From Bacteroidales bacterium (GTDB taxonomy: Bacteria > Bacteroidota > Bacteroidia > Bacteroidales > 4484-276): a stretch of DNA of 37,452 bases. The position numbers were made by a program, and so were the translations under genes. Shown here one piece after another: positions 34,743 to 37,452 of this stretch. The notes under the pieces are model-generated. The model made no database searches and was not told the DNA's origin. It saw only the letters and a program-made list of their open reading frames with translations. The stretch is from the NCBI GenBank assembly GCA_012523265.1, contig JAAYIU010000134.1, positions 1-37,452 on the forward strand, written 5' to 3'. Positions within the stretch are counted from its first letter, which is position 1. Each line of letters begins with the position of its first letter.

Positions 34743-34811
34743 AAAATGTTTCTGTCAGCAGAAACATTTTACTGCCTTTTGTTTCTGTGTACGGAAAGTA
34801 TTTTATCTTTG
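34743..34811 (+). promoter_or_regulatory. Bacteroidota promoter with two phased dyad operator sites
   Basis: Perfect AAAATGTTTCTG-tcag-CAGAAACATTTT (34743-34770); second weaker site GTTTCTG-tgta-CGGAAAG (34781-34798), 33 bp away; TTTG 34778-34781 and TATCTTTG 34804-34811. Confidence 0.75.
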
Positions 34812-34837: not shown

Positions 34838-36151
34838 ATGGACAAAAATAAATTATTTGGCATCCTCAACGATTGGAATTACTGGGACAAGCCCGTTCCG
34901 GAATTTTTTCCGAGGCCATTGTATCAGGAAAAGATCAACCAATATCTTACCACCGGAGAGGTAATTGTTTTGAAAGGCATACGCAGAGCCGGAAAATCAA
35001 CGCTTTTGATCAACCATATCCGGTATCTTACCGAAAATGGAATTGATAAAAAGGCATTTCTTTTTGTGAATTTTGAAGATCCGCGTCTTGGCGATGAACC
35101 GGATAGCGAGTTATTGGAGCAAATTCTGGAAACTTACAAGGAGTTTGTGAACCATGAGGTAAAACCGCACGTTTTTCTGGATGAAGTACAAAACGTACAT
35201 CAGTGGGAAAAATGGGTTTTGACAGGATATGAACTCGACAGGGGGCATTTTTATGTAACGGGTTCTTCGTCGAAACTGCTTAGCAGAGAGTTTGGAACGG
35301 CGCTAAGCGGAAGGTTTCTCGCCATTAATGTGCTCCCGCTGGGATTTGATGAATATTTGCTTTTTAAAAATTTACCTGCGCCAGACAAAAATAAGCTGAT
35401 CACACAAAAAATCCTTTACAAAAAAGCCTTCAATGATTATCTCACTGCTGGTGGTTTCCCCAAGGCTGTTTCGCTTGTAGATGAGTTGAGACGACAAGAG
35501 ATGATCATGTATTACGAAACCATCATCCTTAAAGATATTGTGGCGCGTTACAACCTGAAAAATTTTGACAGCGTTAAAAAAGTTGCGCTATTCTTACTTT
35601 CAAACATAGGAAAACCGTTCAACCTTAACAAGGTAAAAACCACACTTCAATTATCGTACGACCTGGCAGATAAATATTTCGAGTATCTCAAAGACACTTT
35701 CCTGTTGTTTGAAATATATAAATACGATCATTCATTAAACAAGCAATTTGCTAATCGGCGCAAGGTTTATTGCATCGACAATGGAATCCTGTCCGCCATT
35801 TCATTCCGTGTTTCGGAAGATTATGGCAGATATCTCGAGAACATTGTATTTGTGGAATTGATGCGCAGAGAAAAAGATATTTATTTTCATCAGGGTCAAA
35901 AGGAATGTGACTTTGTAATTAAAGAAAGTTTGCGAATAACGCAGGCAATACAGGTTTGCCGTAGCCTGAAAGACGAAAAAACCAGACAACGCGAAGTAGA
36001 TGGTCTTCTGGAAGCTATCAAAACCTACAATCTGAATGATGGCCTGATCCTCACCGAAGACGAAGATTTTGAAACTGAAGTGGAAGGATTCAACATTGTA
36101 GTACTGCCGGTTTGGAAGTGGTTTCTCCAACCCGATATCCAAACTGTCTGA
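34838..36151 (+). CDS. AAA_14/DUF4143-type ATPase (AAA + winged-helix-like + nuclease-fold-like C-terminus)
   Basis: Walker A KGIRRAGKSTLL, Walker B HVFLDEVQNV, TGSSSKLLSREFGTALSGRF, YYETIILKDIVARYNLKN; C-terminus YLENIVFVELMRRE...GQKECDFVI...AIQVC. Start placed at 34838 because the promoter lies inside the longer ORF. Confidence 0.9.
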   Translation: MDKNKLFGILNDWNYWDKPVPEFFPRPLYQEKINQYLTTGEVIVLKGIRRAGKSTLLINHIRYLTENGIDKKAFLFVNFEDPRLGDEPDSELLEQILETYKEFVNHEVKPHVFLDEVQNVHQWEKWVLTGYELDRGHFYVTGSSSKLLSREFGTALSGRFLAINVLPLGFDEYLLFKNLPAPDKNKLITQKILYKKAFNDYLTAGGFPKAVSLVDELRRQEMIMYYETIILKDIVARYNLKNFDSVKKVALFLLSNIGKPFNLNKVKTTLQLSYDLADKYFEYLKDTFLLFEIYKYDHSLNKQFANRRKVYCIDNGILSAISFRVSEDYGRYLENIVFVELMRREKDIYFHQGQKECDFVIKESLRITQAIQVCRSLKDEKTRQREVDGLLEAIKTYNLNDGLILTEDEDFETEVEGFNIVVLPVWKWFLQPDIQTV

Positions 36152-36163
36152 TCGATCATTTCC

Positions 36164-36256
36164 TGTAATCCATTACAAAAAATAATCAAATATCTTGTAT
36201 CCCATTACTAATAATCTGGATATTCTTTGTAACCCATTACAAGATAATTATCTTTG
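36164..36256 (+). promoter_or_regulatory. Three phased dyad sites at 32-bp period overlapping a promoter
   Basis: TGTAATCCATTACA (36164-36177), TGTATCCCATTAC (36196-36208), TGTAACCCATTACA (36228-36241); TTTG 36226-36229, N19, TATCTTTG 36249-36256. Confidence 0.8.
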
Positions 36257-36271
36257 CGGAAAATATCTTCT

Positions 36272-37452
36272 ATGATAGAATTATTCGAAAGCAGCAACCT
36301 GCTTATAAACTCAGTGAGCCATCAGTTCAAACGATTCAGGTTTGACACCATCGATTGGGATGGCCGGCTGGTTGAAATTAATGGTGCAAGAGGCGTGGGA
36401 AAAACCACCATGCTGTTGCAAAAGGCCAAATTGCTGAACGCGGGAGTTAATAATGCGGCACTGTATGCTTCATTGGATGATCCATATTTTTATAAAAGAA
36501 ATTTGATTGAAGTTGCGGATGAGTTTTATAAAAATGGCGGCAAGCACCTCTTTTTCGATGAAGTGCATCGTTATCCATCGAAAGATCCGGAACACGACTG
36601 GTCATCTGAACTGAAAACAATTTACGACCGGTATCCCGATCTCACTGTTATTTATTCAGCTTCTTCCATTTTAAAATTACAGAAGGCCAAAGGTGATTTG
36701 AGCCGCCGTAAGATTTCCTATAATCTGCCAGGGTTTTCGTTTAGGGAATATTTGGACTTTAATGATATTGAAAAAATCGAACCAATGAATTTGGACCATC
36801 TTTTGACACGACATGTTGAAATTTCAAATCAAATCATTTCAAAAGTTAAAATTATTCCGCATTTCAAAGCCTACCTAAGAACGGGTTATTATCCTTTTTA
36901 TAATGAAGCGCCCGATCACTATTTTGAGCGATTGAAGGATGTGATAACGGTGATTCTTGAAAACGACATTCCGTCTGTAACCGGCATTCCATTTGAAACA
37001 TCGATAAAGCTGAAAAAGTTGCTGAGTTTAATTTCGGAGAGCGCTCCTTACACGCCAAATTTATCGTTGATCAGTAAAGAGCTTTTTATCAAGGACCAAC
37101 GCACTTTGTTGAAATATTTCAGTTTCCTGGAAAACGCTGAACTTATCCAGGCACTTAGCAAAGAAGCCACAGGAAACAGGATTTTGCGAAAGCCCGATAA
37201 ATTATTTTTAAACAACACCAATTTGCATTATTGTTTTTATAGCACCCCGAATATCGGCACCCAAAGAGAGACATTCTTTGCTAACCAGCTCAGAAACCAT
37301 CACCTTTTGACATTTCCTGAAACGGGTAATTTTAAAGTAGACGACACCATGATATTCGAAATTGGAGGTAAGAACAAAGACAAATCTCAGCTCAAAGATA
37401 TTGAGAACGCCTACTTCGCCCTCGACGATATAGAAACAGGATATGGCAACAC
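36272..37452 (+). CDS. Second AAA_14-type ATPase, 3'-truncated by window end
   Basis: Open from ATG 36272 to the end: MIELFESSNLLINSVSHQFKRFRFDTIDWDGRLVEINGARGVGKTTMLLQ...HLFFDEVHRY...IYSASSILKLQ...LPGFSFREYL...DDTMIFEIGGKNKDKSQLKDI. Absent from ORF track because no stop inside the window. Confidence 0.9.
   Translation, partial: MIELFESSNLLINSVSHQFKRFRFDTIDWDGRLVEINGARGVGKTTMLLQKAKLLNAGVNNAALYASLDDPYFYKRNLIEVADEFYKNGGKHLFFDEVHRYPSKDPEHDWSSELKTIYDRYPDLTVIYSASSILKLQKAKGDLSRRKISYNLPGFSFREYLDFNDIEKIEPMNLDHLLTRHVEISNQIISKVKIIPHFKAYLRTGYYPFYNEAPDHYFERLKDVITVILENDIPSVTGIPFETSIKLKKLLSLISESAPYTPNLSLISKELFIKDQRTLLKYFSFLENAELIQALSKEATGNRILRKPDKLFLNNTNLHYCFYSTPNIGTQRETFFANQLRNHHLLTFPETGNFKVDDTMIFEIGGKNKDKSQLKDIENAYFALDDIETGYGN

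Follow-up and report, generated by a model that had tools for sequence, protein, structure and literature searches.

Helically phased dyad arrays at the promoters of AAA_14 ATPase genes as candidate private operators of the ATPases encoded downstream

Phage CI-type repressors, the C proteins of restriction systems and plasmid Rep proteins with iterons are self-regulated through operators that have diversified among relatives. The arrays described here, upstream of AAA_14 ATPase genes, resemble those of such families in apparently combining private operators over the own promoter, repeated dyads and orthogonality between relatives; they differ in that the putative regulator would be an ATPase of STAND/ORC-like type whose C-terminal domain resembles a nuclease, and in a spacing that stays fixed at three helical turns across very diverged motifs. 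ORC/Cdc6 and DnaA, of which DnaA is autoregulated, offer another comparison: like the presumptive regulators considered here, they are AAA+ ATPases with a DNA-binding domain that reads repeated sites, and they appear among our fold matches, whereas the sites of the present family are locked to their own promoter and are paralog-specific. Sulfolobus solfataricus SSO1545 is an archaeal AAA+ ATPase with a winged helix; its counterpart in Pyrococcus abyssi, PABY2304 (PDB 2qen), shares the AAA+ core and fold with our structural model and is its best global match (TM 0.45/0.49). Sequence identity is about 14%, and we know of no operator or DNA target for either of them.

Few uncharacterised genes of bacteria and archaea are as abundant as those of the AAA_14/COG1373 ATPases, which are often counted as phage defence under the name PDC-S01, with no experimental proof. 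Both ATPases considered below match the PDC-S01 profile of PADLOC, one over its full length (residues 22-431, E 9e-117) and the other partially (residues 36-343, E 2e-23). The excerpted text of PMC12988326 presents PDC-S01 as a candidate phage-defence family, ranks it fourth in frequency among prokaryotic defence families and gives experimental validation as pending for most PDCs; within that excerpt, the description of the family does not include a self-read operator (PMC12988326). Our literature search, which covered open-access papers, found nothing on such operators.

The window, i.e., the whole stretch of 37.4 kb that was analysed, ends in one of these genes, an AAA_14 ATPase gene on the forward strand (36272..37452, ATG at 36272) that runs off the end of contig C207 and thereby lacks its last residues only. 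Upstream of it lie three TGTAA-N4-TTACA dyads, unassigned to a strand, at steps of 32 and 32 bp: a perfect distal dyad TGTAATCCATTACA (36164..36177), an imperfect middle dyad TGTATCCCATTACT with 2 mismatches (36196..36209) and a perfect proximal dyad TGTAACCCATTACA (36228..36241), whose centres precede the first T of the -7 box by 78.5, 46.5 and 14.5 bp, respectively. The promoter is of the Bacteroidota type, with a -33 element TTTG (36226..36229, forward strand), N19 and a -7 element TATCTTTG (36249..36256, forward strand), and the proximal dyad lies over its -33 box. In all these respects, namely the start positions, the constant 32-bp step, the imperfect middle site and the third dyad over the TTTG, the locus is exactly as the preliminary description had it. 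When mutual identity and palindromy were scored jointly for three copies at every lag from 14 to 60, the array reached 50 against 41 for the best shuffle, and none of 400 dinucleotide shuffles matched it.

The second such gene in the window, which encodes an AAA_14 + DUF4143 ATPase (34838..36151, forward strand; AAA_14 107.7 bits, DUF4143 70 bits), is the one with the full-length PDC-S01 match. It is preceded by an array of its own (34748-34798) with a 33-bp period, consisting of a distal dyad GTTTCTGTCAGCAGAAAC (34748..34765; 0 of 400 shuffles) and a proximal dyad GTTTCTGTGTACGGAAAG (34781..34798), neither assigned to a strand, the latter 33 bp downstream of the former and centred 14.5 bp upstream of the gene's TATCTTTG at 34804. 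The dyad is unrelated to that of the 36164 array, and the register to the -7 box is equal, the proximal centre lying 14.5 bp upstream of that box in both window genes.

Perfect TGTAA-N4-TTACA occurs only twice in the window, at 36164 and 36228, with the middle dyad as the single near-match around the array, and the exact matches to TGTAANCCATTACA in the 3.98-Mb genome of the organism are the distal and proximal dyads of this array only. Nine further matches with one mismatch are all single, and five of them fall within ORFs; a genome-wide regulon built on TGTAA-N4-TTACA was consequently rejected. Operator copies outside the own promoter numbered 2 in 290 kb of flanks, against 1.65 expected. 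Thus, the motif is not scattered at random through the genome. The exact double TGTAANCCATTAC array, sought in 395 Bacteroidota genomes, was present in the window alone, a result that misleadingly suggested a one-off or local oddity, because the motif changes and the spacing does not.

This constancy of spacing emerges from the promoters of homologous genes. For each gene, the 160-bp upstream region was compared with itself, the winner being the lag with the best 18-base self-match. With the start codons of homologs assigned by rule, 143 of 222 promoters have their best lag at exactly 32 or 33 bp. The first 133 homologs contribute 44 cases at 32 bp and 45 at 33 bp (89 in total, against 4.65 expected from shuffles), a further set contributes 54 of 89, and among representatives no more than 50% identical the count is 25 of 42. 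Promoters of neighbouring genes show such a lag in 27 of 280 cases (Fisher p 8e-33 against the homolog promoters), and 7 of the 14 strongest of these precede other AAA_14/ATPase genes, i.e., members of the same superfamily. The pooled lag spectrum peaks at 32-33, weakly at 64-66 and nowhere else. About 35% of the homologs are without a clear 32/33-bp best lag, as would be expected if their dyads are single or degenerate, their starts misplaced or their architecture of another kind. Nearly all homologs carry repeated dyads close to the gene start, with sequences other than that in the window. Between copies of one array the dyad arms, which were chosen for similarity, are 85% identical, and the spacers, which were not, are 42% identical against 31% expected from composition; thus, it is the spacing that is kept and not the sequence. 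Judged from these upstream comparisons, the 36164 array is part of a family-wide architecture; the phased repeats for which the preliminary description had proposed to check orthologs were found there, and its proposal of sites phased on one face of the DNA is supported by the same lag. Some of the named loci come from metagenome bins that are possibly misassigned: close homologs occur in bins named Clostridiales, Solobacterium, Treponemataceae, Trichlorobacter and Campylobacteraceae (L081, L082, L102, L121 and L132), a placement that would reflect horizontal transfer or binning error.

The arrays also appear to keep a fixed relationship to the promoter. In 70 promoters with a single TAnnTTTG box and 2-5 sites each, the site centres, counted from the first T of the -7 box, lie at +15 (29 sites), -18 to -13, -51 to -46 and -84 to -79, a lattice that looks tidier than it would otherwise since operator extraction presupposed a lag of 32/33. 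Because the centres fall on this lattice, we take promoter and array to be locked together, with steps of 33 bp (or 32 bp). A role at the RNA level, such as an attenuator or leader hairpins, was rejected because most sites sit upstream of the -7 box.

While spacing and register to the -7 box stay the same, the motif differs both among homologs and among paralogs of the same genome. In the genome from which the window comes, eight AAA_14 genes were readable, and seven of them show a repeat near 32-34 bp, each of its own sequence; where other genomes carry two to four copies, their operators differ too. Two of the AAA_14 genes of this genome, L003 on contig C23 and L007 on contig C411, show perfect 18/18 repeats at 32 bp, GCGGTGAATACGATCACC and TTGCGATCGTAATCGCAA, respectively. 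TGTAA-N4-TTACA is mostly retained in the genes most closely related to the window gene (51-59% identity), with three such sites in L058 and L142, and TGGAA/TTCCA takes the place of TGTAA/TTACA in L056 and L138. Among 80 homolog loci there is no conserved neighbour gene or regulator, the commonest neighbour being another AAA_14 ATPase (7 of 80), which bears out the earlier remark that no separate regulator gene adjoins the array.

Turning to the protein encoded at 36272, its match to Pfam AAA_14 (PF13173) scores 83.3 bits against a cut-off of 27, and it is without a match to DUF4143 (PF13635) at 0.01, a domain matched at E up to 0.01 by 34 of 39 aligned homologs. An AlphaFold model (39 sequences; pLDDT 89.8, pTM 0.88) and the family alignment suggest a layout of an AAA domain at approximately residues 30-160, a winged helix at 241-297 and a C-terminal domain with an E-x-G-G-K motif. 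The predicted winged helix, encoded at 36992..37162 on the forward strand, comprises helices 241-257, 264-271 and 276-288, the last being the recognition helix, and a wing at 292-295; it is the very segment that had been singled out as winged-helix-like from the sequence. Relatives yield profile matches to MarR/Crp-type HTH domains and to the ORC4 winged helix, and a DNA-binding domain of this type is thus predicted for the ATPase. Fold matches of the model include ORC4, 2qen, Cdc6/Orc1 on origin DNA, CED-4 and DnaA; a sequence search against solved structures gave short P-loop or winged-helix matches only, and NCBIfam holds no name for the family. In the C-terminal domain, residues 353-373 (window positions 37330-37390) keep a D-x(9)-E-x-G-G-K..K pattern reminiscent of the PD-(D/E)XK nuclease fold; the residues of this pattern are absent from the clade of L051-L055.

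The operators appear to vary with this recognition helix. Across 152 protein-operator pairs, residue 277, which is second in the helix, shows the strongest link to the operator of any column; in the 86 pairs with TG-type half-sites 277 is again first, and 280 comes second when half-site positions 3-5 are summed. The Z scores of residue 277 in the two tests are 13.4 and 7.2, and columns 141 and 194 are also high. Visual inspection pairs R-N with TGC, R-D with G and R-E with A at half-site position 5, and R-A and R-I with TGTTTA or TGTATA; in the clade of the window gene there is one extra residue before the recognition helix and the half-site is moved 2 bp inwards. As a control for shared ancestry, 13-residue stretches of the protein were compared for how well they pick out a homolog whose operator is similar. 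Windows over 265-289 are best or near-best at every limit of overall identity used (1.0, 0.6, 0.5 and 0.45); at the limit of 0.5 they reach 0.63, where the median window gives 0.53 and random pairs give 0.505. When the rest of the protein is removed by partial correlation, the value for the helix is reached by none of 500 permutations under a null that ignores phylogeny, for which the comparison with the rest of the same protein corrects in part; two AAA-domain windows (97-115) come near the helix score. Given these tree-free nulls and the close AAA-domain windows, the covariation is strong but not final evidence that operator specificity is tied to the recognition helix of the ATPase itself. 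It supports the earlier suggestion of autoregulation through the winged helix, insofar as the recognition helix best predicts the operator, and takes it further: across the family the motif is not conserved, the spacing is conserved and the operator sequence follows the recognition helix.

Taken with the computationally established arrays, period, promoter register, divergence, absence elsewhere and statistical link to the helix, the mechanism that we favour is one in which phased dimers of each ATPase occupy the array of their own gene and repress its promoter, a reading to which we assign a probability of about 0.82. The same spacing in hundreds of related genes and a motif that tracks the gene's own DNA-reading helix argue that the gene bound and controlled by each ATPase is most likely the one that encodes it. 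On this account, the three dyads would be the private operator array of the downstream gene; each dyad would be read by two ATPase protomers through their winged helices; and neighbouring dimers would sit 32-33 bp, i.e., three helical turns, apart on one DNA face, where their occupancy would probably be cooperative through ATP-dependent contacts from one dimer to the next. The bound ATPase would most likely block RNA polymerase, resulting in negative autoregulation, because the gene-proximal sites cover the -33 box and the spacer and, in many homologs, also the transcription-start region. The repression could be relieved by a signal or by an altered nucleotide state. Paralogs, in turn, would avoid cross-talk by combining different recognition helices with different operators at equal spacing.

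It is also conceivable, though in our estimate improbable, that the ATPase binds the array as an activator or an assembly platform whose main purpose is other than transcription control, for example, the loading of a filament of the ATPase, or service as an origin or partition site of iteron-like type, comparable to those of ORC/Cdc6 and plasmid Rep. The best fold matches, with their ORC subunits, origin-bound Cdc6/Orc1, DnaA and the Pyrococcus ATPase 2qen, the profile match to the ORC4 winged helix and the presence of 2-5 copies per array at helical phase would all suit such a platform. However, an origin has no need of a register tied to the -7 box, occlusion is to be expected of sites over the -33 box and the start region, the ATPase genes are chromosomal with several per genome, and the flanks hold no second array.

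Still less probable is that one or more separate, unlinked regulators bind the arrays and that the ATPase is merely the regulated gene. Such regulators would leave no trace in the neighbourhood, and the autoregulation favoured above is itself a deduction; nevertheless, within a genome the operator of every paralog differs, and it varies together with the recognition helix that the downstream gene itself encodes, such that a private unlinked regulator would be needed for each paralog, and the sites occur at no other place in the loci. Hardly credible, finally, is an origin of the arrays as neutral tandem duplications or mobile-element ends acquired with the gene: the superfamily is multi-copy and patchily distributed and one locus (L130) has a site match just downstream, but arms conserved over near-background spacers, a period and register held while the motif changes, and the want of any matching element at the downstream end speak against it, and transposon ends and slippage were rejected.

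If, as we favour, the ATPases read their own arrays, the register-locked three-turn array read by the gene's own winged helix would provide the first concrete, testable molecular activity for the family. The arrays suggest that AAA_14 ATPases act at DNA as ORC/STAND switches do. Promoters and ATPases of the family would further provide naturally occurring pairs that are orthogonal to one another and whose code can be read in part.

Other DUF4143 subfamilies have dissimilar elements at the same place. Repeats of approximately 22 bp, i.e., two helical turns, such as GGTGGAT/ATCCACC and TTGAGTAAATTTACTCAA, occur in L169, L174, L175, L184 and L186, and the GPRQSGKTT subfamily (L161-L168, L170 and L008) has one large inverted repeat just 5' of the start and no array. 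The principle may therefore extend superfamily-wide. More broadly, and tentatively, the AAA_14/PDC-S01 superfamily of bacteria and archaea could be one of self-addressed ATPase switches that polymerise in helical phase on private arrays at their own promoters, with dozens of paralogs kept orthogonal by a code that can be read from the recognition helix and with subfamilies using 22-bp repeats, 32/33-bp repeats or single large dyads; if these genes are immune sensors, control of the own promoter would on this view be part of the sensing. We regard this generalisation as possible, with the odds leaning slightly against it. Among plasmid relatives from other phyla (L291-L301), too few for a claim, several have dyads near the start: those of the Listeria plasmid pLIS51 (L296) and a Thermus plasmid (L299) are perfect and close to the start, e.g., ACCATTATTTGAAGTTAACTTCAAATAATGGT, Peptoclostridium L292 has a dyad near the start, and L300 and L301 show 22- or 23-bp repeats.
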